Below, in pieces: positions 19,301-64,000 of a stretch of DNA of 64,000 bases. Source of the stretch: Procambarus clarkii (taxonomy: Eukaryota; Arthropoda; Malacostraca; Decapoda; Cambaridae). Below the pieces are notes generated by a model. The model ran no database searches. It was not told where the DNA came from and was given only the letters and a program-made list of their open reading frames with translations. How positions within the stretch are numbered: position 1 is the first letter of the stretch; every line of letters starts with the position of its first letter. The DNA is taken from NCBI RefSeq assembly GCF_040958095.1, contig NC_091193.1, forward strand, positions 33,156,614-33,220,613. Direction: 5' to 3'. Both the position numbers and the translations under genes were made by a program.

Positions 19301-20048
19301 AGGGTCCAGTCCGCCTTAGCAAACTGCCACCTAGGGAAAGAGAGGGAAGGGCGAAAAGAGAAAAAGGAAACAAGGATGGGGAAATGATCACTTCCATGGA
19401 GGTCATCAAGAACCTGCCATGTGAAATCTAAGTAAAGAGAAGAAGAGCAGAGAGAAAGATCAAGACAAGAAAGGGTGCGAGTTCGAGAGTCCAAATGAGT
19501 GGGCTCACCAGAATTCAGAAGAGACAGGGAAGAAGAGAGGAGAAACGGCTCAAGGAGGCGACCCCGGGTATTCGTCAGAACGTCACCCCAAAGAGAATGA
19601 CGACAATTGAAGTCACCCAGCAGGAGCACAGGCTCCGGCAAGGAGTCTAGGAGGTGTTTCAAATCAGGAAGAGAGAGCGGGACACCCGGGGGGAGATAAA
19701 TGGAACAAACTGTGTACCATTTCCCCACAAAGATACGAGCAGCAGAACAATGGAGAGGCGAAGGAAAAAGTAAAGGAACAAAGGGAACATCAGCCCGAAT
19801 CAAGAGAGCAGAAGAATTAGAAGCCCCAGCAATGGCTGGGGGGGGGGGGGGGAGAGAAAGGAATAGCCACGAAAACGACCAGGACGAGCACCAAGCATCG
19901 GCTCCTGGAGACAGACACAAAGGGGCGAAAACCGCGAAACCAGAAGTTGGAGTTCGAGGAAATTGGCGTAATAACCTCGAACGTTCCATTGAAGAATGGA
20001 CAACGACGAGAAGAGAAAGGACAAAAACAGAGAACAAGGAAGAAACAA
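16318..20048 (-). CDS. LINE ORF2: endonuclease, reverse transcriptase, RNase H (homopolymer frameshift)
   Basis: The enzyme of target-primed reverse transcription: nick, cDNA synthesis and RNA removal. I place the start at 20,048, 24 bp past the ORF1 stop, because SILQWNVRGYYANF and QEPMLG are in that frame. A 15-G run (plus 19,838-19,852; 13 in copy 1) then shifts the frame. The 1,262-codon open frame beginning at 20,106 reads the first 90 or so residues wrongly. Downstream, endonuclease GDFN and SDHFP are present. RT follows with FRPIALTS, FDLEKAYDTTW (near 18,280), GVPQGSVLSTTLF (near 18,100) and the catalytic YVDD (near 18,013). RNase H has VFTDGSKSADG (near 17,130), TAELYAI, DSRSAL and NERADAAAKEA. 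A CPSC...H...C zinc motif lies near 16,515. Expected length is about 1,242 residues once the run length is allowed for. Confidence 0.92.
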
Positions 20049-20071
20049 AGGTGAAAGACCAACAGAGCACG

Positions 20072-33744: not shown

Positions 33745-36700
33745 AAAGTAAAATAAATGACATGATCTCGGATGCAATCTTTCCAGTGAGGTACCAAGTG
33801 ATAAGAAAATATAGGACACAGAGCTAGGGAGGGGGAGTGGCACTCCTAATAAAGCGGAAATGAAAGTTTGAAGACCTGGAAAATCCAGGTACTAATGAAA
33901 GCACAAGCTTTCATTAGACTCTGACAGCAGATGGGAATAAGATTGTGATTTTGATAATCTACAATCCCCCATCACACAGTAGAAGGCCCGGGCATGAGTA
34001 TGACGACAACAACAAGGCATGCATAGATGAGCTGCAGAAGGCACCACCAACAACACACAAAATGAGAGCGAAACTTCTGGTCATGGGGGGAACTCAATCA
34101 TGGAGAGATCAGCCGGAAATCTAGGAATTTCCGTGGTGGGGAGGAAACGTTGGGAGCAAAAGTAGTAGACGTTATAGACAGGAATTTCCTAATACAGCAT
34201 GTGAAGGAAGACACAAGGGAAAGTGGAGGGGGAATACACCGAGCCTATTAGACATGATTTTTACCCAGAACGTAGAAGACATCGAGAATTTGGAATATAA
34301 AATAATTCCATTAGCCAGTGACCATTATGTCCTAGTCTTTGACTACATGATGGAACTTAAGATTATGACCACGAGACAAGAGATCTGGGAAAGGAGAGTT
34401 GACTACAAGAAAGGGGATTACTGGGGGATAAGGGAATACCTGGGTGAAGTGCAGTGGGAGGAAGAAATTAGAGGAAAAACAGTCCAAAATATGATAGCCC
34501 TAGTCGTTATACCAGGGGAATAACCAGGAGAGTATACCAGGGGAATAACCAGGAGAGTATACCAGGGGAATAACCAGGAGAGTATACCAGGGGAATAACC
34601 AGGAGAGTATACCAGGGGAATAACCAGGAGAGTATACCAGGGGAATAACCAGGAGAGTATACCAGGGGAATAACCAGGAGAGTATACCAGGGGAATAACC
34701 AGGAGAGTATACCAGGGGAATAACCAGGAGAGTATACCAGGGGAATAACCAGGAGAGTATACCAGGGGAATAACCAGGAGAGTATACCAGGGGAATAACC
34801 AGGAGAGTATACCAGGGGAATAACCAGGAGAGTATACCAGGGGAATAACCAGGAGAGTATACCAGGGGAATAACCAGGAGAGTATACCAGGGGAATAACC
34901 AGGAGAGTATACCAGGGGAATAACCAGGAGAGTATACCAGGGGAATAACCAGGAGAGTATACCAGGGGAATAACCAGGAGAGTATACCAGGGGAATAACC
35001 AGGAGAGTATACCAGGGGAATAACCAGGAGAGTATACCAGAAGATAAAGGAGGAGATTTCCTCCTGGAAATACCAGGAGGCTGAAGAGAGATTTATACTA
35101 ACAGTAAAGAGAAAAAAAGTTATAATATCCCATGGTTTAATAGACATTGTCAGGAAGCAAAAATGAGAAGCAAGAGGGAGTCGAGGAAGCACAGAAGACA
35201 AAGAACAGAGGACAGGAGGATTAGATCCAACAAAGCTTGGAACGATTACATTACCAATAGAAGGGTATCGAAAACAAATTCTAAGAACGATATTGCGATG
35301 AGAGCGAAAAATCAACCTAAAATACTACACAGCCATATAAGAAGGAAAATGTCGGTGAACGACCAAGTGACAAAAACAAGGTAAACAGAAGGGAGCATAT
35401 ACGGAGAGTGACAACGAAATCTGCGAGGCACTGAATGCCAGCTTCCATGGAGTGTTCACAACCGAGCCTGAGCAGCTCCCATTGTTAGAAGAGATTACCC
35501 TAGATGAAAGACTATCAGATATAGAGGTGACAGCAGAGGAGGTAATGAAACAGCTGACAACACTGAATGCAACTAAAGGAGGTGGACCGGACTATGTATC
35601 ACCGTGGATACTAAAAGAGGCAGTGCAGGCCCTCAGCGTGCCTCTGGCAAGGATCTATAATGAGTCACTTATAACGGGGAGAGTTACCCAGTTGCTGGAA
35701 GAGGATGAATGTGGTACCAATTTTTAAGAAAGGGTAAGGCTAAGACTTGTTGTACAGCTAGAGAGCATTAGTTTTGTAAACAAACATCAACATGGGTTCA
35801 GGGAAGGGAAATCATGCCTAACAAACCTTCTGGAATTCTATGATAAATGACAAGAATTAGTCAGGACAGGAACGGATGGGCAGACTGCATATTTCTGGAC
35901 TGACAAAAAGCCTTTGATACAGTATTGCACATGAGACTGCTATTCAAACTTGAGAGACAAGTAGGAGTAAGCAGAAAGGCCCTAGCATGGGTAAGGAACT
36001 ACCTAACAGGCAGGAGCCAGAAAGTAACGGTAAGGGGCGAGAAGTCAGACTGGCGAGCAGTAACAAGTGGAGTACCTCAAGGATTGGTGCTGGGACCAGT
36101 TATATTTTTAATATACGTAAATGACATGTTTACAGGAGTAGAGTCCTATATGTCGATGTTCGCGGATGAGGCAAAATTAATGAGAAAAGTTGTGACAGAT
36201 GAGGATTGTAGAATCCTCCAAGAGGACTTGAACAAGTTGCAGAGACGGTCAGGAAAGTGGCTACTACTTGAACACAAGCAAATGGGTTAAGGTATGTTAT
36301 CCCATTTCCAAAATTATGGAAATGGGATTAGGTGATAGGAGCCCAAAGGGACAGTACACAATGCAACTGTGAAGATTCGAGAAAGAGACCTGGGAATGGA
36401 TGTAACACCTAATCTAACTCCTGAGGCACATATAAATAGGATAACAACAGCAGCGTACTCTGCACTGGCAAAAGTTTCAGAACATCATTCAGAAACCTAA
36501 GTAAGGAGGCATTTAGGGCGCGTTACACTGCCTATATGAGGCCAGTCATAGAGAATGTTATGCCATCATGGAGTCCCCACCTGAAGAAACACATAAGGAA
36601 ACTGGAAAAGGTTCAGAAGTTTGCGGCTAGGCTCGTCCCAGAGTTACGAGGGATGGGGTATGAAGAGCGCCTAAAGAAACAGAACCTGACGACACTAGAA

Positions 36701-40965: not shown

Positions 40966-41580
40966 CACATGGTCCGTGAGGAGACCAAGGACGTCATTAC
41001 CACACATGGTCCGTGAGGAGACCAAGGACGTCATTACCACACATGGTCCGTGAGGAGACCAAGGACGTCATTACCACACATGGTCCGTGAGGAGACCAAG
41101 GACGTCATTACCACACATGGTCCGTGAGGAGACCAAGCACGTCATTACCACACATGGTCCGTGAGGAGACCACGGACGTCATTACCACACATGGTCCGTG
41201 AGGAGACCAAGGACGTCATTACCACACATGGTCCATAAGGAGACCAAGGACGTCATTACCACACATGGTCCGTGAGGAGACCAAGGACGTCATTACCACA
41301 CATGGTCCATGAGGAGACCAAGGACGTCATTACCACACATGGTCCGTGAGGAGACCACGGACGTCATTACTCCACATGGTCCATAAGGAGACCAAGGACG
41401 TCATTACCACACATGGTCCGTGAGGAGACCAAGGACGTCATTACCACACATGGTCCATGAGGAGACCAAGGACGTCATTACCACACATGGTCCGTGAGGA
41501 GACCAAGGACGTCATTACCACACATGGTCCGTGAGGAGACCAAGGACGTCATTACCACACATGGTCCGTGAGGAGACCAC
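40966..41580. repeat. 37-bp minisatellite, about 16-17 copies
   Basis: Unit ACATGGTCCGTGAGGAGACC plus AAGGACGTCATTACC with a few point variants (CCATGAGG, CCATAAGG, ACGGACG). Confidence 0.97.
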
Positions 41581-41639
41581 GGCAGCTAAACTGTACGATA
41601 ATCCTCAGTAAGAAATTCCTGTCAATTAGTTTTCATTCG

Positions 41640-43445
41640 GTAGAACCTAAGAGATTAACCCTCCCAGCTTGTGAAGGGTAGAACATAAGAGATTAACCCT
41701 CCCAGCTTGTGAAGGGTAGAACATAGAGATTAACCCTCCCAGCTTGTGAAGGGTAGAACATAAGAGATTAACCCTCCCAGCTTGTGAAGGGTAGAACATA
41801 AGAGATTAACCCTCCCAGCTTGTGAAGGGTAGAACATAGAGATTAACCCTCCCAGCTTGTGAAGGGTAGAACATAAGAGATTAACCCTCCCAGCTTGTGA
41901 AGGGTAGAACCTAAGAGATTAACCCTCCCAGCTTGTGAAGGGTAGAACATAAGAGATTAACCCTCCCAGCTTGTGAAGGGTAGAACCTAAGAGATTAACC
42001 CTCCCAGCTTGTGAAGGGTAGAACATAGAGATTAACCCTCCCAGCTTGTGAAGGGTAGAACATAGAGATTAACCCTCCCAGCTTGTGAAGGGTAGAACAT
42101 AGAGATTAACCCTCCCAGCTTGTGAAGGGTAGAACATAAGAGATTAACCCTCCCAGCTTGTGAAGGGTAGAACATAAGAGATTAACCCTCCCAGCTTGTG
42201 AAGGGCAGAACATAGAGATTAACCCTCCCAGCTTGTGAAGGGTAGAACATAGAGATTAACCCTCCCAGCTTGTGAAGGGTAGAACATAGAGATTAACCCT
42301 CCCAGCTTGTGAAGGGTAGAACATAGAGATTAACCCTCCCAGCTTGTGAAGGGTAGAACATAGAGATTAACCCTCCCAGCTTGTGAAGGGTAGAACATAA
42401 GAGATTAACCCTCCCAGCTTGTGAAGGGTAGAACATAAGAGATTAACCCTCCCAGCTTGTGAAGGGTAGAACATAGAGATTAACCCTCCCAGCTTGTGAA
42501 GGGTAGAACATAGAGATTAACCCTCCCAGCTTGTGAAGGGTAGAACATAAGAGATTAACCCTCCCAGCTTGTAAAGGGTAGAACATAGAGATTAACCCTC
42601 CCAGCTTGTGAAGGGTAGAACATAAGAGATTAACCCTCCCAGCTTGTGAAGGGTAGAACATAGAGATTAACCCTCCCAGCTTGTGAAGGGTAGAACATAA
42701 GAGATTAACCCTCCCAGCTTGTGAAGGGTAGAACATAAGAGATTAACCCTCCCAGCTTGTGAAGGGTAGAACATAGAGATTAACCCTCCCAGCTTGTGAA
42801 GGGTAGAACATAGAGATTAACCCTCCCAGCTTGTGAAGGGTAGAACATAGAGATTAACCCTCCCAGCTTGTGAAGGGTAGAACATAAGAGATTAACCCTC
42901 CCAGCTTGTAAAGGGTAGAACATAGAGATTAACCCTCCCAGCTTGTGAAGGGTAGAACATAAGAGATTAACCCTCCCAGCTTGTGAAGGGTAGAACATAG
43001 AGATTAACCCTCCCAGCTTGTGAAGGGTATAACCTAAGAGATTAACGCTCCCAGCTTGTGAAGGGTATAACCTAAGAGATTAACGCTCCCAGCTTGTGAA
43101 GGGTAGAACCTAAGAGATTAACGCTCCCAGCTTGTGAAGGGTAGAAGCTAAGAGATTAACGCTCCCAGCTTGTGAAGGGTAGAAGCTAAGAGATTAACCC
43201 TCCCAGCTTGTGAAGGGTAGAAGCTAAGAGATTAACGCTCCCAGCTTGTGAAGGGTAGAACATAAGAGATTAACGCTCCCAGCTTGTGAAGGGTAGAACA
43301 TAAGAGATTAACGCTCCCAGCTTGTGAAGGGTAGAACATAAGAGATTAACGCTCCCAGCTTGTGAAGGGTAGAACATAAGAGATTAACGCTCCCAGCTTG
43401 TGAAGGGTAGAAGCTAAGAGATTAACGCTCCCAGCTTGTGAAGGA
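41640..43445. repeat. 36/38-bp minisatellite, about 48 copies
   Basis: Unit TTAACCCTCCCAGCTTGTGA plus AGGGTAGAACATAAGAGA. Two length classes exist: ACATAAGAGA (38) and ACATAGAGA (36). They alternate irregularly. After about 43,020 the array switches to TTAACGCTCCC units with ACCTAAG or AGCTAAG variants. There are no unique spacers, so it is not CRISPR-like. Confidence 0.97.
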
Positions 43446-46340: not shown

Positions 46341-46524
46341 TAAAAAATATTCTTAAGAACATGATACAGCAGTGAATTAGTTGTTACAGAAAACACATGT
46401 TAAATAAAGCCATTAATACATAAAGTGTTTTGTGTATACTTATACATAATAGACCTTGAGAGTAAGTTACGGTTATATTGACGAACCGCCTCGGTAAGCT
46501 GCAAGTTTATTGTTCCTATACTGG
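46341..46524. other. Short intronic spacer
   Basis: AT-rich, nothing recognised. Confidence 0.4.
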
Positions 46525-48675
46525 TAAGTTAACAGTGTTGATGTTAGTAACAGGTAAGTTAACAGTGTTGATGTTAGTAACAGGTAAGTTAACAGTGTTG
46601 ATGTTAGTAACAGGTAAGTTAACTGTGTTGATGTTAGTAACAGGTACGTTAACAGTGTTGATGTTAGTAACAGGTAAGTTAACAGTGTTGATGTTAGTAA
46701 CAGGTACGTTAACAGTGTTGATGTTAGTAACAGGTACGTTAACAGTGTTGATGTTAGTAACAGGTAAGTTAACAGTGTTGATGTTAGTAACAGGTAAGTT
46801 AACAGTGTTGATGTTAGTAACAGGTAAGTTAACAGTGTTGATGTTAGTAACAGGTAAGTTAACAGTGTTGATGTTAGTAACAGGTAAGTTAACAGTGTTG
46901 ATGTTAGTAACAGGTAAGTTAACAGTGTTGATGTTAGTAACAGGTAAGTTAACAGTGTTGATGTTAGTAACAGGTAAGTTAACAGTGTTGATGTTAGTAA
47001 CAGGTAAGTTAACAGTGTTGATGTTAGTAACAGGTAAGTTAACAGTGTTGATGTTAGTAACAGGTAAGTTAACAGTGTTGATGTTAGTAACAGGTAAGTT
47101 AACAGTGTTGATGTTAGTAACAGGTAAGTTAACAGTGTTGATGTTAGTAACTGGTAAGTTAACAGTGTTGATGTTAGTAACAGGTAAGTTAACAGTGTTG
47201 ATGTTAGTAACAGGTAAGTTAACAGTGTTGATGTTAGTAACAGGTGAGTTAACAGTGTTGATGTTAGTAACAGGTAAGTTAACAGTGTTGATGTTAGTAA
47301 CTGGTAAGTTAACAGTGTTGATGTTAGTAACAGGTAAGTTAACAGTGTTGATGTTAGTAACCGGTAAGTTAACAGTGTTGATGTTAGTAACAGGTAAGTT
47401 AACAGTGTTGATGTTAGTAACAGGTAAGTTAACAGTGTTGATGTTAGTAACAGGTAAGTTAACAGTGTTGATGTTAGTAACAGGTAAGTTAACAGTGTTG
47501 ATGTTAGTAACTGGTAAGTTAACAGTGTTGATGTTAGTAACTGGTAAGTTAACAGTGTTGATGTTAGTAACAGGTAAGTTAACAGTGTTGATGTTAGTAA
47601 CAGGTAAGTTAACAGTGTTGATGTTAGTAACAGGTAAGTTAACAGTGTTGATGTTAGTAACAGGTAAGTTAACAGTGTTGTTGTTAGTAACAGGTAAGTT
47701 AACAGTGTTGATGTTAGTAACAGGTAAGTTAACAGTGTTGATGTTAGTAACAGGTAAGTTAACAGTGTTGATGTTAGTAACAGGTAAGTTAACAGTGTTG
47801 ATGTTAGTAACAGGTAAGTTAACAGTGTTGATGTTAGTAACAGGTAAGTTAACAGTGTTGATGTTATTAACAGGTAAGTTAACAGTGTTGATGTTAGTAA
47901 CAGGTAAGTTAACAGTGTTGATGTTAGTAACAGGTAAGTTAACAGTGTTGATGTTAGTAACAGGTAAGTTAACAGTGTTGATGTTAGTAACAGGTAAGTT
48001 AACAGTGTTGATGTTAGTAACAGGTAAGTTAACAGTGTTGATGTTAGTAACAGGTAAGTTAACAGTGTTGATGTTAGTAACAGGTAAGTTAACAGTGTTG
48101 ATGTTAGTAACAGGTAAGTTAACAGTGTTGATGTTAGTAACAGGTAAGTTAACAGTGTTGATGTTAGTAACAGGTACGTTAACAGTGTTGATGTTAGTAA
48201 CAGGTAAGTTAACTGTGTTGATGTTAGTAACAGGTAAGTTAACAGTGTTGATGTTAGTAACAGGTAAGTTAACTGTGTTGATGTTAGTAACAGGTACGTT
48301 AACAGTGTTGATGTTAGTAACAGGTAAGTTAACAGTGTTGATGTTAGTAACAGGTAAGTTAACAGTGTTGATGTTAGTAACAGGTAAGTTAACAGTGTTG
48401 ATGTTAGTAACAGGTAAGTTAACTGTGTTGATGTTAGTAACAGGTACGTTAACAGTGTTGATGTTAGTAACAGGTAAGTTAACAGTGTTGATGTTAGTAA
48501 CAGGTAAGTTAACAGTGTTGATGTTAGTAACAGGTAAGTTAACAGTGTTGATGTTAGTAACAGGTAAGTTAACAGTGTTGATGTTAGTAACAGGTAAGTT
48601 AACAGTGTTGATGTTAGTAACAGGTAAGTTAACAGTGCTGATGTTATTAACAGGTAAGTTAACAGTGTTGATGTC
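46525..48675. repeat. 30-bp minisatellite, about 72 copies, bearing splice-site-like motifs
   Basis: Unit CAGGTAAGTTAACAG plus TGTTGATGTTAGTAA, exceptionally homogeneous; the commonest variants are GGTACG and AACTG. The plus strand carries CAG/GTAAGT, a perfect match to the 5' splice-site consensus, in nearly every unit. The minus strand carries TTACTAAC, containing the ideal branch-point sequence TACTAAC. Because 30 is divisible by three and the unit has no stops in one frame of each strand, frames of 756 (plus) and 742 (minus) codons result. I regard them as artefacts. Confidence 0.98.
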
Positions 48676-49141: not shown

Positions 49142-50016
49142 GGTCCAGCATGGTCAAGAGCGGCCCCGTATAGCATGGTCAAGAGCGGCCCCGTATAGCA
49201 TGGTCAAGAGCGGCCCCGTATAGCATGGTCAAGAGCGGCCCCGTATAGCATGGTCAAGAGCAGCCCCCGTATAGCATGGTCAAGAGCGGCCCCGTATAGC
49301 ATGGTCAAGAGCGGCCCCGTATAGCATGGTCAAGAGCGGCCCCGTATAGCATGGTCAAGAGCGGCCCCGTATAGCATGGTCAAGAGCGGCCCCGTATAGC
49401 ATGGTCAAGAGCGGCCCCGTATAGCATGGTCAAGAGCGGCCCCGTATAGCATGGTCAAGAGCGGCCCCGTATAGCATGGTCAAGAGCGGCCCCGTATAGC
49501 ATGGTCAAGAGCGGCCCCGTATAGCATGGTCAAGAGCGGCCCCGTATAGCATGGTCAAGAGCGGCCCCGTATAGCATGGTCAAGAGCGGCCCCGTATAGC
49601 ATGGTCAAGAGCGGCCCCGTATAGCATGGTCAAGAGCGGCCCCGTATAGCATGGTCAAGAGCGGCCCCGTATAGCATGGTCAAGAGCGGCCCCGTATAGC
49701 ATGGTCAAGAGCGGCCCCGTATAGCATGGTCAAGAGCGGCCCCGTATAGCATGGTCAAGAGCGGCCCCGTATAGCATGGTCAAGAGCCGCCCCGTATAGC
49801 ATGGTCAAGAGCGGCCCCATATAGCATGGTCAAGAGCGGCCCCGTATAGCATGGTCAAGAGCGGCCCCGTATAGCATGGTCAAGAGCGGCCCCGTATAGC
49901 ATGGTCAAGAGCGGCCCCGTATAGCATGGTCAAGAGCGGCCCCGTATAGCATGGTCAAGAGCGGCCCCGTATAGCATGGTCAAGAGCGGCCCCGTATAGC
50001 ATGGTCAAGAGCGGCC
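49142..50016. repeat. 25-bp minisatellite, about 35 copies, beside the ENPP exon
   Basis: Unit CATGGTCAAGAGCGG plus CCCCGTATAG, nearly perfect (one AGCAGCCCCC and one CGCCCC variant). It begins 46 bp upstream of the exon acceptor, so it occupies the region where the branch point would lie. Confidence 0.97.
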
Positions 50017-50104
50017 CCCTTACCCCCTGAAGGGCCGGGTGGCCGGAGTGGGAAGGACATGTATAATTAAAACCTGTTAAACTATCTATATTTCTCTCCA
50101 TAAA
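50017..50104. other. Unique spacer
   Basis: Between the 25-bp array and the ACC-rich array; nothing recognised. Confidence 0.4.
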
Positions 50105-50470
50105 CATTACTATCATCTCGACTATCACCACAACAACTACCACCACCACTACAACTACCATCACCACCACAACTACCACCACCACCACAACTACCACCAC
50201 AACAACTACCACCACCACTACAACTACCATCACCACCACCACAACTACCATCACCACCACCACAACTACCACCACTACAACTACCATCACCACTACAACT
50301 ACCATCACCACCACAACTACCACCACTACAACTACCACCACCACTACAACTACCATCACCACCACCACAACTACCACCACTACAACTACCACCACCACCA
50401 CCACTACAACTACCATCACCACCACCACAACTACCACCACTACAACTACCACCACCACCACCACTACAAC
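50105..50470. repeat. ACC/ACT-rich minisatellite, left of the palindrome
   Basis: Imperfect units built from CAACTACCACC and ACTACAACTACCATCACC on the plus strand. It ends CCACTACAAC exactly at the palindrome border. Val-only and Gly/Ser frames on the minus strand are artefacts. Confidence 0.97.
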
Positions 50471-50482
50471 AGTAGTAGGGAT

Positions 50483-50534
50483 GACATGCCACAGACGATA
50501 TTTTGTTTCTGGGAAATATCGTCTGTAGCATGTC
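50483..50534. repeat. Terminal hairpin, left tip
   Basis: GACATGCCACAGACGATATT (50,483-50,502) pairs with AATATCGTCTGTAGCATGTC (50,515-50,534) with one mismatch, around a 12-base loop, 12 bp inside the palindrome end. Confidence 0.93.
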
Positions 50535-53500
50535 AGGGTTTTCAGGCAAATTTAGAAATATCGTGTGTAGCATGTCAGGGTTTTCAGGTGAATTTGGGGA
50601 GTCACAGACTTGGGATTAAGGATTTCTTATGAGTGAGTAATTTCCGAGATTTTAGAAGTATGGAATTCTTATGAGAAAAATAATTTCCGAGACATAGAAG
50701 TTTGTTAAGGCCTTATGGGAGAAATTCAAATATCGTGTGTAGCACTTTAGGGTTTCCAGGAGAACTCTACGGACATGTTTTACATGTTTTCAACTTAGAA
50801 AATCCGTCTGTGTAAGCCATAGTTTTCATGTAAATTTTGAAAATCACATGTGTAAGTCATGGTTTTCAGGGTTTCGTACATCACACCCCCTCCCTCCCCC
50901 CTTACCTCGCAATCTCTCGCGTCACCTTTATTTACTTTACGCCCGGACAGCCAGACGACTCTTATCATATCTTATCTCCATAATATCTCTACCGTCCCTC
51001 CTCTCTCTCTCTCTCTCTCTCCTCTTCCTATTTCCTTACAACTATTTTCAGAGTTTCAAATAATCATAGAAGTTTATTTATATGTTTATGACCGAATTTG
51101 TAAAAGGACCATTTTCAGAGAATATTGTCTTAGATGTTTTGTTAAGGAAAACAGGCAACTTATCCATAACATTTAGTTTTATATCCATTTACGGCTATTT
51201 CATCTGTAAAGACCAAATTGATCAGAGCCCAGTTTATACCGAAAATTCGCCAGAGTCTACTTTGAGAGCAATATTCGTCAGAGGCAGTTTTAGCTCATAT
51301 TTCATCAGAGACCATTTTATACCTAAAAATGAACAGAGTCCACTTTGTCAGCAAAATTAGTCAGAGACAGTACTTAGCTCATATTTCATCAGAGTCCAGT
51401 TTTCTAGCAAAATTCGCCAGAGTCTACTTTGTGCCAAAATATTCAGAGTCCAGTTCATGATCGAAATTAATCAGAGTCCAGTTTTCTAGCAAAATTCGCC
51501 AGAGTCTACTTTGTGCCAAAATATTCAGAGTCCAGTTCATGATCGAAATTCATCAGAGTCCAGTTTTCTAGCAAAATTCGCCAGAGTCTACTTTGTGCCA
51601 AAATATTCAGAGTCCAGTTCATGATCGAAATTAATCAGAGTCCAATTAAAGACCCAAATTTGGCAGAGACCACATTTTCGCTACTAGCAGTCCAATCCCC
51701 CTGAAATTTTAAACAGTCATATTTCAGACGTAGTAAATAAGATCAAGTCAGTTACAGAGCTCCAGCTCTTGTCCCCCTGTATTTGCATATTTTCTCTATA
51801 TTCACTGTGTTCTTCGTATTCTCATCCGTGTTCACTCCATGTTCTACAAATGTTCACAGTCCCATTCAGTTCATATTTTCACAAGTATCTCCATTTTTTC
51901 TGTAATCTTTCTCTTAGTCTCATTATGTTCTCTACAAAGTCTAGTCATATTTTCTATGTACATCATATGTTCTCTTTACAACTTTTATACTCAATATTCA
52001 TGCTAACTTCCATATTTTGTGTTCTTTGTCAATATTCATGTTCCTCTACAAGTTCATGTTCCTCACAAGATCACTTCGTTTTTCACCTTCACTTACATGT
52101 TTTCTACATTCTTTGTCATATTCTCCATGTTCTTCACAAGTCCATTGTTCATTCTTTGTATTCCCTATTCTCCTTATCATGTTTTCATGTTCTCTGTAAG
52201 TTCATATTCCCAGCATGTTCACTGTATTCATCAACTTTTCTTACATGTGTTCTTTACCATGTTCCCCATATGTTCTCTAGGTTTTCCCCTTACATGTTAT
52301 TTAACGTTCCTTAACTAAAAAAAATCTTTCGCCAATCAACTAAAACATAGTCACTTTCGTCATTTCTCAACTAAACTTATTATCCAGTCAACTAAAAATT
52401 GTCAAAGGAATCTTTCCAACACTGTTCATAACTAAACTTATTCCCTAGTCATCAGAAAATAACCGTGTTCTTCATGTTTCATTGTCATTTCATAACTAAC
52501 TTTATCCATAGTCAAGTAAGAAAATATAGTCAAAGATATCTATCATCGTCGTTCTTAACTGGCATTATACTTTGTGGAGCACTAAAAAATAGTCAAATGT
52601 AACTTTTTCAACACTTTCATAACTAAACTTATTATCCAGTCAACTAAAAATTGTCAAAGGAATCTTTCCAGCACTGTTCTTAACTAAACTTATTCCCCAG
52701 TCATCAGAAAATAACCGTGTTCTTCATGTTTCATTGTCATTTCATAACTAAAATTATCTGCCAATCATCAGAAAAAGTCATGTTCATCATGTTTTGGTTT
52801 TTGCTCAACTAAAAGTATTCATCGGTCAACTAAAAATAGTTACTTCATCATGTTTCCTTGTCATTTCTTAACTGAAATATCACTTCTCTCATCTGAAAAT
52901 AGTCAGGATTAACCTCATTCAACACCGTTCTTAACTAAAACAGCCTTTCGCTTAGCTAAAAATTGTCAAAGGAATCTTTTCAGCACTGTTCATAACTAAC
53001 TTTATCCATAGTCAAGTAAGAAAATATAGTCAAAGATATCTATCATCGTCGTTCTTAACTGGCATTATACTTTGTGGAGCACTAAAAAATAGTCACTGTC
53101 GTCATATTTTGTCTTTTTCCTCAACTAAAAGAGTCAAATGTAACTTTTTCAACACTTTCGTAACTAAAATTATATGTCGCTAAGTAAGAAAAATAGTCAA
53201 AGGTGCTCTCCGTTACACCAAAGTTACTCTTCGAGAAATCAAAGACACTCTTCAATACATTAAGGACTTACTCAAAGACACCAAAGTTACACTCTAAGAC
53301 ATCCTTCGAGACATCAAAGACATCCTTTAAGACTTCAAGGGCACTCTTCGAGATATCAAAAGACACTCTCAAACACTCAAATTTACTCGCATCCTCAAAG
53401 TTATTCTCAGAGTCATCAAAAAGTTAATCTCAGTCATCAAAATGCTATTCTCTAAGTAGCCTTTCGTTCATCAGAGAAACTTTCTAAGACATCTTCGTTC

Positions 53501-55261
53501 ATTAAAGTTAATCTCAGAGGCATAAACGTTATTCTTGGAGCTATCAAAATTAATCTCTAAAACAACAAAAGTTAATCTCTGTCATCAAAGTTAATCTGCA
53601 AGATATCTTCGAGACATCAAAGTTACTTTTCATTACATCAAAGACGCATTCAAATACTACCCATGTTCTCAGAAGTCATTCTCTAAGCCATCAATGTTCT
53701 TCTCTAATACATAAAAGTTATTCTCAGAGTCACCTTCGTTCGTCAGAGAAACTTTCAAAAACATCTTTGTTCTTCAAACTTGTTTTCAAAGTCATCAAAA
53801 GTTAATCTAAGACATCTTCTTTCATCAAAGTTATTTTCAGAGACATCTAAAGTTATTCTCAGAGCTATCAAACTTGTTCTCAGAGTCATCAAATGGTATT
53901 CTCGAAGTCATCAAAGTTATTTTCAGAGACATCTAAAGTTAATTTCTATGTTATAAAGTTATTCTCAGAGACATCTAAAGTTAATCTTGGTCATCAAAGT
54001 TATTTTCAGAGACATCTAAAGTTAATTTCTATGTTATAAAGTTATTCTCAGAGACATTTAAAGTTAATCTTGGTCATCAAAGTTGTTCTCTAAACATCAA
54101 TGTTGTTCTCCAAGACATCAAAGATGTTCTCAAAATCATAAAAGTTATTCCCAGAGCTAACAAAATACTACTCATGTTCTCAAAGACATTCTCCAATTCA
54201 TCAATGTTGTTTCAAAGACATCAAAGTTAATCTCAGAGTTATCCAAAGACATTCTCAAAGTCATCTAAAGTTATTCTCTAAGACATCAAAGTTATTCTAA
54301 GAGTTATCAAAAGTTATTCTCAGTCATGTTATGTTATTCTCTAACTCACTTCCATTCATCAAAAGACATTCTCTAAGCCCTCAAAGTTATTCCCAGAGTC
54401 ATCAAAAAGTTATTCTTCAAAACATAAAATTTGCTCTGTAAGATATCTTCGTTCATCAAACTTATTCTCAGAGATATCTAAAGTTATTCTCAGAACAATC
54501 AAAAGTTATTCTAAGACAACAAAGTCTTTCTCAGAGTCATCAAAGTTATTCTCAGAGTCACCTTTGTTATTCAAAGAAGCCTTCTGAGACATCCTCGTTC
54601 AACAAAAACTGTCCTCAGAGCCATCAAAAAGTTAAATACAGTCGTCAAAGTTATTCTCTAAGTATCTTTTCGTTCATCAGAGAAGCTTTCTAAGACATCT
54701 TTGTTCATCCAAGTTGTTCTCTAAGACATCAATCTTGTTCTCTAAGACATCAAAGATGTTCTCTAAATCATAAAAGTTAATCTCTAAGTTACCTTCGTTC
54801 ATCAGAGAAACTTTCCAAAACATCTTCGTTCATCAAACTTGTTTTCAAAGTCATCAAATGTTATTCTCGAAGTCATCAAAGATATTTTCAGAGACATCTA
54901 AAGTTAATTTCTATGTTATAAAAGTTATTCTCAGAGACATCTAAAGTTAATCTTGGTCATCAAAGTTGTTCTCTAAACATCAATGTTGTTCTCCAAGACA
55001 TCAAAGATGTTCTCAAAATCATAAAAGTTATTCCCAGAGCTATCAAAGTGATCTTTAGTTCATCTTCGTTCTCCAAAAAGTTATTCTCTAAGACACCTTC
55101 GTTCATCAAAGAAACTCTCCTTCTTCCATCATGTTATTCTTTAAGACATCTTCAGTCATAAAATTTTCTCTCCAAAATGTAACTAGTTCAGCTTTTCATA
55201 CCAAGCCTGCACTTGTTAAAATATATTTTCGCAGTCACTTTACCCTAAAACTGTTCTCTGA

Positions 55262-55975
55262 ACTATCCTAACTTAACTTACCTTACCTTACCTATCTTAC
55301 CTAACTTTACCTATGTTACCTTACCTTACCTACCTTTTCCTAACTTATCCTGCTTAACCTATCTTACCTAACTTTACCTATGTTACCTTACCTTACCTAC
55401 CTTTCCTAACCTAACTTTACCTACGTTACCTTACCTTACCTACCTTTCCTATCTTATCCTGCTTAACCTATCTTACCTAACTTTACCTATGTTACCTTAC
55501 CTTACCTACCTTTCCTAACTTAACCTGCTTAACCTATCTTACCTAACTTTACCTATCTTACCTAACTTTACCTATCTTACCTAACTTAACTTTCATAACC
55601 TAACTTTACCTATCCTAACATAACTTACCTTACCTTCCCTATCTTACCTAACTTTACCTATCCTAACATAACTTACCTTACCTTCCCTAACTTAACCTAA
55701 CTTTACCTATCCTAACATAACTTACCTTACCTTCCCTAACTTAACCTAACTTTACCTATCCTAACTTAACTTACCTTTCATAACCTAACTTTACCTATCC
55801 TAACATAACTTACCTTACCTTCCCTATCTTACCTAACTTTACCTATCCTAACTTAACTTACCTAACTTATTCTGCTTAACATAACTTACCTTACCTTCCC
55901 TATCTTACCTAACTTTACCTATCCTATCCTAACCTAACTTGTCTTACCTAACTTAATCTTACTTTCCCAAACTGA
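55262..55975. repeat. Degenerate CCTAA/CCTTA telomere-like tract, left arm
   Basis: About 700 bp of ACCTAACTTTACCTATCTT-type text, loosely built from the arthropod telomere hexamer relative CCTAA (TTAGG on the other strand) but never a clean array. The C-rich strand is the plus strand. Confidence 0.8.
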
Positions 55976-56662
55976 TGTATCCTAACTTATCTAGTCCAAC
56001 CAGACATGATCTAACTTAAGTATTCCTTCTTGTCTTTGTGTTTCGTCAATCATTGTCTCATATTCATTTACTCATTTCATTAGTTAATTTCTCAAATGGT
56101 CACTTATGCATTTCAAGTGCTATTTGTTAGAGATTGGATATTTAAGCATTTCAAAGAATTATAATTTCTCAAATGGACGTTTTGCATTTCAAGTGCTATT
56201 TGTTAGAGATTGGATATTTAAGCATTTCAAAGAATTTTTGTTATATATGGGCATTTACTCATTTCAAGGGATAATTTCTCAAATGGACGTTTTTGCATTT
56301 CAAGTGTTATTTGTTTAAGATTGGGTATTTAACCATTTCAAAGGATTTTTGTTATATATGGGAACTTACTCGTTTCAAGGGCTAATTTCTCAAATGGTCA
56401 TTTTTGCAGATCAAGGGTTATTTGTTAAAGTTCATCAAGTTGCCCATAAGTTGTATTAGTAGGTTCTATCTTATGTTCTTATTTCCCAACCCCTTAACCT
56501 AACCTCTTGTAATCTTAGTGTATTTAGTAGGTTCTATCTTATGTTCTTATTCCCCAACCCTTTAACCTAACCTTTCAGATGTAGTTTGTTGAATATATTA
56601 TCCTTTTCCTAACCTTTCAGATGTAGTTTTGTTTCTCCTTTTTGTATATTTTTACCCAAACC

Positions 56663-57102
56663 CACCATCCCACTTAACCTTCTTTCCTTCTTTTATTTTG
56701 TTTTCACATATAAGTTCATTCTTTATCTTAGTAATAATAAAATTACAATAGTAAAGAATCAGATCTACTAAGACTTGAATTTGAGAAACAAGAGCTCAAG
56801 GGAGTGAGAGCATGAAAGAAGAGCAAGGAGTAAGAGAGAGGGGCGGAAGAAAATGGGACCAAAGAAGAGAGAATGAGAGAGAGTGTGGGCATGGGAGCAC
56901 TAAGACTTGAATTGAGAAAAAGAAAAACTAAGTGAATGAGAATGAGGGTGTGAGAATGGGAGCAATAAGACTTGAATTTGAGAAACAAGAGAGCATTTGA
57001 GCAAATGAGGGAGAGAGAGGGGGAGGAAGAGAGAGAATAAGGGAGAGAGATAGAAAAGGAGGGTTAGAAGGAGTAGGAGAATCAAAGTAAAGAAGGAAAG
57101 AT
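56663..57102. repeat. 440-bp asymmetric spacer of the palindrome
   Basis: Not self-complementary. Mostly purine-rich (GAGAGAG) on the plus strand. Contains three copies of a TAAGACTTGAATTTGAGAAA motif (about 56,769, 56,900 and 56,967), two of them followed by ACAAGAG. No coding potential recognised. Confidence 0.85.
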
Positions 57103-57789
57103 GGTTTGGGTAAAAATATACAAAAAGGAGAAACAAAACTACATCTGAAAGGTTAGGAAAAGGATAATATATTCAACAAACTACATCTGAAAGGTTAGGT
57201 TAAAGGGTTGGGGAATAAGAACATAAGATAGAACCTACTAAATACACTAAGATTACAAGAGGTTAGGTTAAGGGGTTGGGAAATAAGAACATAAGATAGA
57301 ACCTACTAATACAACTTATGGGCAACTTGATGAACTTTAACAAATAACCCTTGATCTGCAAAAATGACCATTTGAGAAATTAGCCCTTGAAACGAGTAAG
57401 TTCCCATATATAACAAAAATCCTTTGAAATGGTTAAATACCCAATCTTAAACAAATAACACTTGAAATGCAAAAACGTCCATTTGAGAAATTATCCCTTG
57501 AAATGAGTAAATGCCCATATATAACAAAAATTCTTTGAAATGCTTAAATATCCAATCTCTAACAAATAGCACTTGAAATGCAAAACGTCCATTTGAGAAA
57601 TTATAATTCTTTGAAATGCTTAAATATCCAATCTCTAACAAATAGCACTTGAAATGCATAAGTGACCATTTGAGAAATTAACTAATGAAATGAGTAAATG
57701 AATATGAGACAATGATTGACGAAACACAAAGACAAGAAGGAATACTTAAGTTAGATCATGTCTGGTTGGACTAGATAAGTTAGGATACA

Positions 57790-58503
57790 TCAGTTTGGGA
57801 AAGTAAGATTAAGTTAGGTAAGACAAGTTAGGTTAGGATAGGATAGGTAAAGTTAGGTAAGATAGGGAAGGTAAGGTAAGTTATGTTAAGCAGAATAAGT
57901 TAGGTAAGTTAAGTTAGGATAGGTAAAGTTAGGTAAGATAGGGAAGGTAAGGTAAGTTATGTTAGGATAGGTAAAGTTAGGTTATGAAAGGTAAGTTAAG
58001 TTAGGATAGGTAAAGTTAGGTTAAGTTAGGGAAGGTAAGGTAAGTTATGTTAGGATAGGTAAAGTTAGGTTAAGTTAGGGAAGGTAAGGTAAGTTATGTT
58101 AGGATAGGTAAAGTTAGGTAAGATAGGGAAAGTAAGGTAAGTTATGTTAGGATAGGTAAAGTTAGGTTATGAAAGTTAAGTTAGGTAAGATAGGTAAAGT
58201 TAGGTAAGATAGGTAAAGTTAGGTAAGATAGGTTAAGCAGGTTAAGTTAGGAAAGGTAGGTAAGGTAAGGTAACATAGGTAAAGTTAGGTAAGATAGGTT
58301 AAGCAGGATAAGATAGGAAAGGTAGGTAAGGTAAGGTAACGTAGGTAAAGTTAGGTTAGGAAAGGTAGGTAAGGTAAGGTAACATAGGTAAAGTTAGGTA
58401 AGATAGGTTAAGCAGGATAAGTTAGGAAAAGGTAGGTAAGGTAAGGTAACATAGGTAAAGTTAGGTAAGATAGGTAAGGTAAGGTAAGTTAAGTTAGGAT
58501 AGT
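57790..58503. repeat. Degenerate TTAGG-like tract, right arm
   Basis: Mirror of 55,262-55,975: GTAAGTTAGGTAAGATAGG-type text with the G-rich strand on plus. Confidence 0.8.
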
Positions 58504-61500
58504 TCAGAGAACAGTTTTAGGGTAAAGTGACTGCGAAAATATATTTTAACAAGTGCAGGCTTGGTATGAAAAGCTGAACTAGTTACATTTTGGAGAGAAA
58601 ATTTTATGACTGAAGATGTCTTAAAGAATAACATGATGGAAGAAGGAGAGTTTCTTTGATGAACGAAGGTGTCTTAGAGAATAACTTTTTGGAGAACGAA
58701 GATGAACTAAAGATCACTTTGATAGCTCTGGGAATAACTTTTATGATTTTGAGAACATCTTTGATGTCTTGGAGAACAACATTGATGTTTAGAGAACAAC
58801 TTTGATGACCAAGATTAACTTTAGATGTCTCTGAGAATAACTTTTATAACATAGAAATTAACTTTAGATGTCTCTGAAAATATCTTTGATGACTTCGAGA
58901 ATAACATTTGATGACTTTGAAAACAAGTTTGATGAACGAAGATGTTTTGGAAAGTTTCTCTGATGAACGAAGGTAACTTAGAGATTAACTTTTATGATTT
59001 AGAGAACATCTTTGATGTCTTAGAGAACAAGATTGATGTCTTAGAGAACAACTTGGATGAACAAAGATGTCTTAGAAAGCTTCTCTGATGAACGAAAAGA
59101 TACTTAGAGAATAACTTTGACGACTGTATTTAACTTTTTGATGGCTCTGAGGACAGTTTTTGTTGAACGAGGATGTCTCAGAAGGCTTCTTTGAATAACA
59201 AAGGTGACTCTGAGAATAACTTTGATGACTCTGAGAAAGACTTTGTTGTCTTAGAATAACTTTTGATTGTTCTGAGAATAACTTTAGATATCTCTGAGAA
59301 TAAGTTTGATGAACGAAGATATCTTACAGAGCAAATTTTATGTTTTGAAGAATAACTTTTTGATGACTCTGGGAATAACTTTGAGGGCTTAGAGAATGTC
59401 TTTTGATGAATGGAAGTGAGTTAGAGAATAACATAACATGACTGAGAATAACTTTTGATAACTCTTAGAATAACTTTGATGTCTTAGAGAATAACTTTAG
59501 ATGACTTTGAGAATGTCTTTGGATAACTCTGAGATTAACTTTGATGTCTTTGAAACAACATTGATGAATTGGAGAATGTCTTTGAGAACATGAGTAGTAT
59601 TTTGTTAGCTCTGGGAATAACTTTTATGATTTTGAGAACATCTTTGATGTCTTGGAGAACAACATTGATGTTTAGAGAACAACTTTGATGACCAAGATTA
59701 ACTTTAAATGTCTCTGAGAATAACTTTATAACATAGAAATTAACTTTAGATGTCTCTGAAAATAACTTTGATGACCAAGATTAACTTTAGATGTCTCTGA
59801 GAATAACTTTATAACATAGAAATTAACTTTAGATGTCTCTGAAAATAACTTTGATGACTTCGAGAATACCATTTGATGACTCTGAGAACAAGTTTGATAG
59901 CTCTGAGAATAACTTTAGATGTCTCTGAAAATAACTTTGATGAAAGAAGATGTCTTAGATTAACTTTTGATGACTTTGAAAACAAGTTTGAAGAACAAAG
60001 ATGTTTTTGAAAGTTTCTCTGACGAACGAAGGTGACTCTGAGAATAACTTTTATGTATTAGAGAAGAACATTGATGGCTTAGAGAATGACTTCTGAGAAC
60101 ATGGGTAGTATTTGAATGCGTCTTTGATGTAATGAAAAGTAACTTTGATGTCTCGAAGATATCTTGCAGATTAACTTTGATGACAGAGATTAACTTTTGT
60201 TGTTTTAGAGATTAATTTTGATAGCTCCAAGAATAACGTTTATGCCTCTGAGATTAACTTTAATGAACGAAGATGTCTTAGAAAGTTTCTCTGATGAACG
60301 AAAGGCTACTTAGAGAATAGCATTTTGATGACTGAGATTAACTTTTTGATGACTCTGAGAATAACTTTGAGGATGCGAGTAAATTTGAGTGTTTGAGAGT
60401 GTCTTTTGATATCTCGAAGAGTGCCCTTGAAGTCTTAAAGGATGTCTTTGATGTCTCGAAGGATGTCTTAGAGTGTAACTTTGGTGTCTTTGAGTAAGTC
60501 CTTAATGTATTGAAGAGTGTCTTTGATTTCTCGAAGAGTAACTTTGGTGTAACGGAGAGCACCTTTGACTATTTTTCTTACTTAGCGACATATAATTTTA
60601 GTTACGAAAGTGTTGAAAAAGTTACATTTGACTCTTTTAGTTGAGGAAAAAGACAAAATATGACGACAGTGACTATTTTTTAGTGCTCCACAAAGTATAA
60701 TGCCAGTTAAGAACGACGATGATAGATATCTTTGACTATATTTTCTTACTTGACTATGGATAAAGTTAGTTATGAACAGTGCTGAAAAGATTCCTTTGAC
60801 AATTTTTAGCTAAGCGAAAGGCTGTTTTAGTTAAGAACGGTGTTGAATGAGGTTAATCCTGACTATTTTCAGATGAGAGAAGTGATATTTCAGTTAAGAA
60901 ATGACAAGGAAACATGATGAAGTAACTATTTTTAGTTGACCGATGAATACTTTTAGTTGAGCAAAAACCAAAACATGATGAACATGACTTTTTCTGATGA
61001 TTGGCAGATAATTTTAGTTATGAAATGACAATGAAACATGAAGAACACGGTTATTTTCTGATGACTGGGGAATAAGTTTAGTTAAGAACAGTGCTGGAAA
61101 GATTCCTTTGACAATTTTTAGTTGACTGGATAATAAGTTTAGTTATGAAAGTGTTGAAAAAGTTACATTTGACTATTTTTTAGTGCTCCACAAAGTATAA
61201 TGCCAGTTAAGAACGACGATGATAGATATCTTTGACTATATTTTCTTACTTGACTATGGATAAAGTTAGTTATGAAATGACAATGAAACATGAAGAACAC
61301 GGTTATTTTCTGATGACTAGGGAATAAGTTTAGTTATGAACAGTGTTGGAAAGATTCCTTTGACAATTTTTAGTTGACTGGATAATAAGTTTAGTTGAGA
61401 AATGACGAAAGTGACTATGTTTTAGTTGATTGGCGAAAGATTTTTTTTAGTTAAGGAACGTTAAATAACATGTAAGGGGAAAACCTAGAGAACATATGGG

Positions 61501-63231
61501 GAACATGGTAAAGAACACATGTAAGAAAAGTTGATGAATACAGTGAACATGCTGGGAATATGAACTTACAGAGAACATGAAAACATGATAAGGAGAATAG
61601 GGAATACAAAGAATGAACAATGGACTTGTGAAGAACATGGAGAATATGACAAAGAATGTAGAAAACATGTAAGTGAAGGTGAAAAACGAAGTGATCTTGT
61701 GAGGAACATGAACTTGTAGAGGAACATGAATATTGACAAAGAACACAAAATATGGAAGTTAGCATGAATATTGAGTATAAAAGTTGTAAAGAGAACATAT
61801 GATGTACATAGAAAATATGACTAGACTTTGTAGAGAACATAATGAGACTAAGAGAAAGATTACAGAAAAAATGGAGATACTTGTGAAAATATGAACTGAA
61901 TGGGACTGTGAACATTTGTAGAACATGGAGTGAACACGGATGAGAATACGAAGAACACAGTGAATATAGAGAAAATATGCAAATACAGGGGGACAAGAGC
62001 TGGAGCTCTGTAACTGACTTGATCTTATTTACTACGTCTGAAATATGACTGTTTAAAATTTCAGGGGGATTGGACTGCTAGTAGCGAAAATGTGGTCTCT
62101 GCCAAATTTGGGTCTTTAATTGGACTCTGATTAATTTCGATCATGAACTGGACTCTGAATATTTTGGCACAAAGTAGACTCTGGCGAATTTTGCTAGAAA
62201 ACTGGACTCTGATGAATTTCGATCATGAACTGGACTCTGAATATTTTGGCACAAAGTAGACTCTGGCGAATTTTGCTAGAAAACTGGACTCTGATTAATT
62301 TCGATCATGAACTGGACTCTGAATATTTTGGCACAAAGTAGACTCTGGCGAATTTTGCTAGAAAACTGGACTCTGATGAAATATGAGCTAAGTACTGTCT
62401 CTGACTAATTTTGCTGACAAAGTGGACTCTGTTCATTTTTAGGTATAAAATGGTCTCTGATGAAATATGAGCTAAAACTGCCTCTGACGAATATTGCTCT
62501 CAAAGTAGACTCTGGCGAATTTTCGGTATAAACTGGGCTCTGATCAATTTGGTCTTTACAGATGAAATAGCCGTAAATGGATATAAAACTAAATGTTATG
62601 GATAAGTTGCCTGTTTTCCTTAACAAAACATCTAAGACAATATTCTCTGAAAATGGTCCTTTTACAAATTCGGTCATAAACATATAAATAAACTTCTATG
62701 ATTATTTGAAACTCTGAAAATAGTTGTAAGGAAATAGGAAGAGAGAGAGAGAGAGAGAGAGAGAGGAGGGACGGTAGAGATATTATGGAGATAAGATATG
62801 ATAAGAGTCGTCTGGCTGTCCGGGCGTAAAGTAAATAAAGGTGACGCGAGAGATTGCGAGGTAAGGGGGGAGGGAGGGGGTGTGATGTACGAAACCCTGA
62901 AAACCATGACTTACACATGTGATTTTCAAAATTTACATGAAAACTATGGCTTACACAGACGGATTTTCTAAGTTGAAAACATGTAAAACATGTCCGTAGA
63001 GTTCTCCTGGAAACCCTAAAGTGCTACACACGATATTTGAATTTCTCCCATAAGGCCTTAACAAACTTCTATGTCTCGGAAATTATTTTTCTCATAAGAA
63101 TTCCATACTTCTAAAATCTCGGAAATTACTCACTCATAAGAAATCCTTAATCCCAAGTCTGTGACTCCCCAAATTCACCTGAAAACCCTGACATGCTACA
63201 CACGATATTTCTAAATTTGCCTGAAAACCCT

Positions 63232-63283
63232 GACATGCTACAGACGATATTTCCCAGAAACAAAATATCGTCTGTGGCATGTC
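63232..63283. repeat. Terminal hairpin, right tip
   Basis: Mirror image of the left terminal hairpin (GACATGCTACAGACGATATT facing AAATATCGTCTGTGGCATGTC). Confidence 0.9.
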
Positions 63284-63295
63284 ATCCCTACTACT

Positions 63296-64000
63296 TACAA
63301 CTACCATCACCACCACAACTACAACTACCACCACCACTACAACTACCATCACCACCACCACAACTACCACCACTACAACTACCACCACCACTACAACTAC
63401 CATCACCACCACAACTACCACCACTACAACTACCACCACCACTACAACTACCACCACTACAACTACCACCACCACTACAACTACCATCACCACCACCACA
63501 ACTACCACCACTACAACTACCACCACCACCACCACTACAACTACCATCACCACCACCACAACTACCACCACTACAACTATCACCACCACCACCACTACAA
63601 CTACCATCACCACCACCACAACTACCACCACTACAACTACCACCACCACTACAACTACCATCACCACCACCACAACTACCACCACTACAACTACCACCAC
63701 CACTACAACTACCACCACCACAACTACCACCACTACAACTACCACCACCACTACAACTACCATCACCACCACAACTACCACCACTACAACTACCACCACC
63801 ACTACAACTACCATCACCACCACCACAACTACCACCACTACAACTACCACCACCACTACAACTACCATCACCACCACAACTACCACCACTACAACTACCA
63901 CCACCACTACAACTACCATCACCACCACCACAACTACCACCACTACAACTACCACCACCACTACAACTACCATCACCACCACAACTACCACCACTACAAC
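63296..64000. repeat. ACC/ACT-rich minisatellite, right of the palindrome
   Basis: Same unit and same orientation as 50,105-50,470 (ACTACAACTACCATCACCAC), running to the window end. The poly-Val minus-strand frame of 286 codons is a repeat artefact. Confidence 0.97.

Follow-up and report, generated by a model that had tools for sequence, protein, structure and literature searches.

The palindrome at positions 50471-63295 of the window (the 64,000-nucleotide stretch of DNA analysed here) is very probably a foldback derivative of a Maverick/Polinton element, non-autonomous and inserted recently. We base this assignment on its Maverick termini, on 6-bp target duplications and on the homology of its terminal repeats to elements that carry polymerase and integrase genes. 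It is classed as a non-autonomous derivative only, because no recognised Maverick genes occur within the palindrome.

Structure and sequence content of the palindrome

The position of the palindrome, the length of its arms and its 440-nt spacer had been reported in a first-pass annotation of this DNA, and all were exact on recomputation (Table 1). The arms align over 6,193 columns with 1 mismatch and 1 gap. The gap, a single nucleotide in the CT run near 51021, had been described as the only difference between the arms. That difference was confirmed, but one substitution had been overlooked, where the left arm has C at 55634 and the right arm T at 58131 (in left-arm sense). Judged from its length of 6.19 kb, so nearly perfect an inverted repeat lies far outside what chance would produce. 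So few differences imply a recent origin, homogenisation of the arms or both, in agreement with the earlier interpretation.

Table 1. Positions of the palindrome, its parts and its insertion site in the window.
Feature	Position	Strand	Remark
ACC/ACA/ACT-type target array, left part	50121..50464	+	triplet repeat
Target-site duplication TACAAC, left copy	50465..50470	+	6 is the sole exact length at the arm ends
Left arm of the palindrome	50471..56662	+	6,192 nt
Terminal (AGT)2 motif, left arm	50471..50476	+	read from the sequence; motif of vertebrate Mavericks reported in PMC8097293
Left-arm stretch homologous to Maverick terminal inverted repeat	50471..51036	+	80%, 587 columns
CT microsatellite near the inner edge of the Maverick-homologous stretch	51001..51021	+	1 nt unlike the other arm
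Inner left arm, tandem-repeat-rich, without recognised genes	51037..56662	+	repeat periods, Pfam scan
Asymmetric spacer (loop)	56663..57102	.	440 nt; homologous across copies
Right arm of the palindrome	57103..63295	-	6,193 nt
Right-arm stretch homologous to Maverick terminal repeat, ending in (ACT)2	62730..63295	-	mirror of 50471-51036
Target-site duplication TACAAC, right copy	63296..63301	+	same basis as left copy
ACC/ACA/ACT-type target array, right continuation	63302..64000	+	orientation unchanged

Each arm consists mostly of blocks of tandem repeats, with periods of ~82, 61, 21/42, 19/29 and 38/111 nt in its inner part. The open frames of the palindrome are short (the longest has 208 aa), and the seven that were scanned from arms and spacer, including the longest, gave no Pfam match. 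Likewise, neither the arms nor the spacer contain a long gene-like frame for polymerase B, integrase or capsid genes. Outside the palindrome, neither the arm nor the terminus was found again in the window. The window does contain retrotransposons, with Pfam matches to endonuclease, reverse transcriptase and RNase H.

A high-copy family with common termini

The palindrome is most likely a member of a high-copy family, of which this genome of 4 Gb has about a thousand copies. A 23-mer from the loop had 1,276 exact matches in the 4.03-Gb assembly that contains the window (636 forward and 640 reverse), and its reversed control had none. The number of elements is somewhat below 1,276, because some of the matches pair up at ~355 nt (3 such pairs in the first 100 places listed), and the count leaves out copies in which the 23-mer is altered.

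A query with the outermost 1.5 kb of the arm gave at least 92 matches in the genome (best 40 of 5,300 candidates scored). Among these, 13 plus/minus pairs were recognised (set 1), 12 of them spaced 12-15 kb and one, on the unplaced contig C394, spaced 24.5 kb. AGTAGT was present at both ends in 12 of the 13 pairs; the left one of C8b was not found. The termini of the element in the window read 5'-(AGT)2//(ACT)2-3'. A loop-centred query returned matches that were 98-100% identical, the window included (best 40 of 1,592 candidates), and among the matches listed most places also showed mirrored arm edges. From the remaining matches of this query we took 10 elements (set 2). Both ends lay within the fetched pieces in 7 of them, one or both ends lying outside in C49n, C3 and C35. 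All seven complete elements had AGTAGT ends, and they spanned 12,540-13,145 bp.

In three pairs of copies (C32a/b, C72a/b and C8a/b), both members lie on one chromosome and have the same target site, as they would after a segmental duplication, and each pair resembles duplicates of one insertion. The pieces of C394 indicate two palindromes within a larger palindrome. C394 was also considered as a gene-bearing copy and rejected, its frames of at least 150 aa being one repeat-like frame present three times. Exact patterns of the terminus and two arm motifs had no match in viral_contigs, and an exact pattern of the subterminal motif had none in genome_contigs.

Gene-bearing Maverick relatives in the same genome

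DNA polymerase B family 2 (PF03175) had at least 95 matches at 91 places in the genome (91 of 1,428 candidates scored), often within open frames of 1,250-1,300 aa, and no match in 14 control genomes. In two polymerase-bearing families, the similarity between two copies of the family begins exactly at AGTAGT. In one of them (C35/C24) the sequence that follows is unlike the palindrome. The other (C16/C40) opens with the same 25 bases as the palindromic copy C32a, and positions 1-566 of the window arm (50471-51036) align with the first 578 bp of this family at 80% (587 columns, E 4.3e-144). For the 16 further palindrome ends compared, the best matches to the repeat of this family had E values of 1e-18 or lower, some of them over part of the repeat.

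Gene-bearing elements of 13.4-13.5 kb begin with AGTAGTAGGGATGG (two read). The lengths derived from their mirrored repeats were 13,539 bp (C16), 13,545 bp (C40), 13,542 bp (C57) and 13,368 bp (C5). Each of these four has a 1,298-aa frame that matches part of the PF03175 model with ~43 bits, which is over the cut-off. A 6-bp duplication was found in 4 of 4 checked, although that of C5 lies within a CA run and also fits 4. In C16, the one element checked for further genes, the inside piece contained an integrase core (rve, 6.9e-9) and a chromodomain (4.2e-6).

The repeat of the C16 element extends to ~925 bp, but its match to the palindrome breaks off shortly beyond the CT run. The adjoining stretches of this element (1.8 kb on its left side, 1.5 kb on its right) gave no match when compared with 7 palindrome arms. 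Conversely, the inner 5.6 kb of the arm had no match to the fetched inner pieces of the gene-bearing Maverick examined.

Evolution and homogenisation of the arms

In 9 elements, the two arms were compared over their first 5.6 kb. Within elements, arm identity ranged from 97.4% (C8a) to 99.98%, whereas between elements it was 86.9-97.1%, with a median of 90.8% (36 pairs). The two arms of one element were sister tips in all 9 cases, with a support of 1.0 (0.85 for the window). Furthermore, the loops of the 8 other elements, some of which were fetched in part, are homologous to the loop of the window. Since arms agree within elements and differ between them, and since the loops are homologous, the simplest history suggested by these alignments is that one ancestral palindrome multiplied and that its arms would have been made alike in or after each round.

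We favour homogenisation linked to replication, which may have proceeded by panhandle copying or repair, as may also happen in adenoviruses. A less probable but still plausible alternative is ordinary gene conversion between the arms after integration, without a role for the replication of mobile DNA. Long near-perfect chromosome palindromes are homogenised by gene conversion. In line with this alternative, the terminal repeats of gene-bearing elements, which lie 12 kb apart, are unlike in 2 of 6 polymerase pairs, where the two ends differ in their similarity to the query (95/92% in C307 and 92/99% in C16:15706915-15720274). In the other 4 pairs (C16, C40, C57 and C5), however, the similarity to the query is the same at the two ends, which is what homogenisation linked to replication would produce.

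The C8 duplicates have 189 arm differences, all present in both duplicates and none new, with 212 gapped columns. The C32 duplicates have 1 common arm difference and 29 single ones, with 82 gapped columns. The arm divergence in the window (1 substitution per 6,192 sites) is unusable for an estimate in years, because homogenisation would reset the clock.

It seems improbable that each palindrome was formed anew by snap-back copying of a non-palindromic parent, in which case the identity of the arms would reflect recent formation. Such an origin could explain why arms are nearly identical within elements while elements differ, and snap-back defective genomes are known for AAV (accessible parts of PMC8235507). 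Yet, independent events should have produced different junctions, whereas all 8 other elements compared have homologous loops, as do the 40 scored matches of the loop query. Moreover, a non-exhaustive look found no non-palindromic parent with these inner arms.

Insertion site and target duplications

The palindrome is an insertion into an array in direct orientation, and not a fold-back artefact. The first-pass annotation had described the flanking array as being in register, and indeed the ACC/ACA/ACT triplets run on past the palindrome in the same direction. A fold-back read would have turned the flank around too. Removal of the element and one TACAAC gives a 30-mer that the two flanks contain 15 times (4 + 11). 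If the boundaries are shifted by up to 6 nt, only 5-bp matches result, and no other length fits at the arm ends. A random 6-bp match within this array has a probability of 0.055 (5.5%), and therefore the duplication in the window is by itself weak to modest evidence.

Across the copies, 6-bp duplications prevail. Set 1 and the window together comprise 11 independent insertions, 8 of which have a duplication of exactly 6 bp (the window, C49, C32, C8, C12, C70, C72 and C16). Deviating lengths were found in C29 (7 bp) and C55 (a 4-bp match), while C394 is located in an AT run where the duplication is uninformative. In set 2, exact 6-bp duplications with differing sequences occurred in all 7 testable elements of the 10. 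Hence, the two sets combined have a 6-bp duplication in 15 of 17 informative insertions. The insertions outside arrays carry weight, because duplication matches come easier in arrays. All 7 insertions without tandem arrays on both sides (C49, C8a, C23, C58, C8n, C89 and C4) have exactly 6 bp, and both deviating insertions are located in arrays. According to the accessible parts of PMC8097293, vertebrate Mavericks have 5'-(AGT)2//(ACT)2-3' ends and perfect 6-bp target duplications.

These observations leave hardly any probability for an assembly or sequencing fold-back, in which an arm would have been read a second time along the complementary strand, so that its copy would not exist in the genome. 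The near identity of the arms would fit such an error, as would the unplaced contig C394, in which the palindrome extends beyond the element ends into the flanks. In the window, however, the flanks are uninverted and the 6-bp duplication lies exactly at the arm ends, which bears out the earlier doubt about a hairpin-read artefact, and the copies elsewhere have other target sites. The first-pass annotation had not recognised the palindrome as a transposon with Maverick termini and a target duplication, nor as one of a large family.

A foldback of the Mutator or P superfamily (like Tetris, Tm1 or Galileo) would have a similar architecture of very long, tandem-repeat-rich inverted repeats and a short non-coding middle, but it is just as improbable in view of the prevailing 6 bp, compared to 8-10 bp in Tetris and 7 bp in Galileo, and of the termini and outer 566 bp, which belong to a Maverick with polymerase and integrase.

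Tandem arrays flanked 10 of the 17 palindrome insertions on both sides (300-nt flanks), namely 8 of the 10 tested in set 1 and 2 of the 7 in set 2. The gene-bearing elements were located in arrays at 4 of 4 ends (left flank only, both families). As a control, arrays were found in 17% of 300 random pieces from positions 1-50000 of the window, which is the rate of a single array-rich window and not a genome-wide rate. A common preference for arrays would fit a common integrase, perhaps through its chromodomain.

Possible mode of movement and significance

Because the palindromes and the resident Mavericks have common ends and a common duplication length, and because the latter have open polymerase and integrase frames, the palindrome was presumably moved in trans by the resident Mavericks. 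These would supply the integrase and a protein-primed polymerase. The element may be copied as linear DNA, with a displaced strand able to form a 6-kb hairpin. Both arms would be equalised in each cycle as this hairpin is repaired or copied through, and the copied product would then integrate, often within tandem arrays.

One could speculate further, although we consider this rather unlikely as a whole, that the palindrome is a gene-free satellite of Mavericks, with a size set by the capsid of the helper and with arms that are reset by hairpin copying, and that it may out-replicate its helper. The palindromes measure 12.0-14.8 kb (mostly 12-13 kb, one 14.8 kb), compared to 13.4-13.5 kb for the putative helper. 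This likeness in size suggests a constraint by packaging in a capsid, but could perhaps be due to chance. The 1,276 loop 23-mers stand against the at least 95 polymerase matches at 91 places, in which several families are mixed.

Here, a foldback structure is combined with the ends of a Maverick, a virus-like element that carries a polymerase, and the genome also contains a family of candidate helpers. This raises the questions of whether helper-dependent Maverick satellites are size-selected by the capsid, and how the inverted repeats of linear replicons remain identical. In addition, the family scatters many near-perfect palindromes of 12-13 kb across the genome, which could provide material for inversions and duplications, and which are a trap for assemblers.

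Comparison with known systems

In the literature on Mavericks and foldbacks that was accessible to us, with thin coverage of subscription journals, we found no foldback or palindromic Maverick; this absence is weak evidence. The accessible parts of PMC8097293 describe intact vertebrate Mavericks of 12,723-24,620 bp with inverted repeats of 46-1,447 bp (mean 402 bp). The palindrome resembles them in its (AGT)2//(ACT)2 termini, its 6-bp duplication and its length of 12.8 kb, which is within their size range. In contrast to these elements, it has no recognised polymerase, integrase or capsid gene, and its repeats of 6.19 kb are more than four times as long as the maximum reported there.

The palindrome also resembles the snap-back defective genomes of AAV, by analogy, as palindromic, gene-poor and helper-dependent DNA (accessible parts of PMC8235507). 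Those genomes are parvoviral, however, and are not integrated by a Maverick integrase, whereas the loops of the palindrome are homologous in all copies compared.

Most foldbacks seem to belong to the Mutator superfamily, with exceptions such as Galileo (accessible parts of PMC4079207 and PMC4168063). Galileo is a P element of Drosophila, classified by its P-type transposase, with mostly 7-bp duplications and with repeats that lengthen through tandem expansion and the recruitment of internal sequence (PMC4168063). The palindrome shares its foldback structure and long repeats, but a 7-bp duplication was found in C29 only, 1 of the 17 informative insertions. With the Mutator foldbacks Tetris and Tm1, the palindrome has in common the long inverted repeats rich in tandem repeats, the short non-coding middle and the lack of coding capacity (for Tetris: PMC4079207, as far as accessible). 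It differs from Tetris, which has duplications of 8-10 bp, in both duplication length and termini. Moreover, no autonomous copy of Tetris was found according to the same source, whereas the palindrome has gene-bearing relatives in the same genome, with which it has its terminal repeat in common.

Insertion sites

Tandem arrays host 10 of the 17 palindrome insertions whose flanks were examined, and all four gene-bearing Maverick ends (4/4, left flank) also lie within such arrays. In the control, which sampled window 1-50000 at random, 17% of the pieces fell in arrays, a rate that describes an array-rich region rather than the genome. The flank pieces compared were L009-L034, L065-L084 and L085-L088, plus window 50121-50470 and 63296-64000. 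Possibly, the integrase has a preference for arrays.

Tandem arrays and retrotransposon frames in the window, and palindrome copy pairs with matching target flanks elsewhere in the assembly
Feature	Position	Strand
Array, 30-nt unit, 72 copies, 98% alike	46523-48674	
Nearly perfect array, 38-nt unit	41639-43444	
Nearly perfect array, 37-nt unit	40966-41579	
Nearly perfect array, 25-nt unit	49147-50018	
Nearly perfect array, 25-nt unit	34508-35040	
Degenerate TTACC/CTAAC-type run inside each palindrome arm	55272-55949 and mirror	
Longer retrotransposon frame (endonuclease, reverse transcriptase, RNase H)	16321-20169	-
Shorter retrotransposon frame (endonuclease)	9510-10691	-
Inverted pair	C32:21235958-21249055, 21434771-21447891	
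Direct pair	C72:29942768-29955702, 29965097-29978030	
Direct pair	C8:53069210-53084019, 53350853-53365693	

Duplicated copies

Both copies of each pair lie on one contig, which may signify either segmental duplication or duplicated assembly. On the unplaced 201-kb contig C394 (pieces L025, L035-L037 and L026), a larger palindrome of ~25 kb apparently encloses two palindromic elements and extends into their flanks. The structure may reflect a fold-back during assembly, or else an inverted duplication that truly exists.

Related elements and repeats

A second polymerase-bearing Maverick family (C35:7204320, L085; C24:42797597, L086) shares the AGTAGT start, but has a different terminal repeat. 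The two terminal repeats of the gene-bearing Maverick C307:204325-217732 are 95% and 92% similar to the query, and those of C16:15706915-15720274 are 92% and 99% similar. Perhaps both elements are recombinants.

The two retrotransposon frames are related to each other. Frames on both strands of the 30-nt array stay open for >700 codons. The TTACC/CTAAC-type run of the arms, without matching simple telomere repeats, is similar to them.
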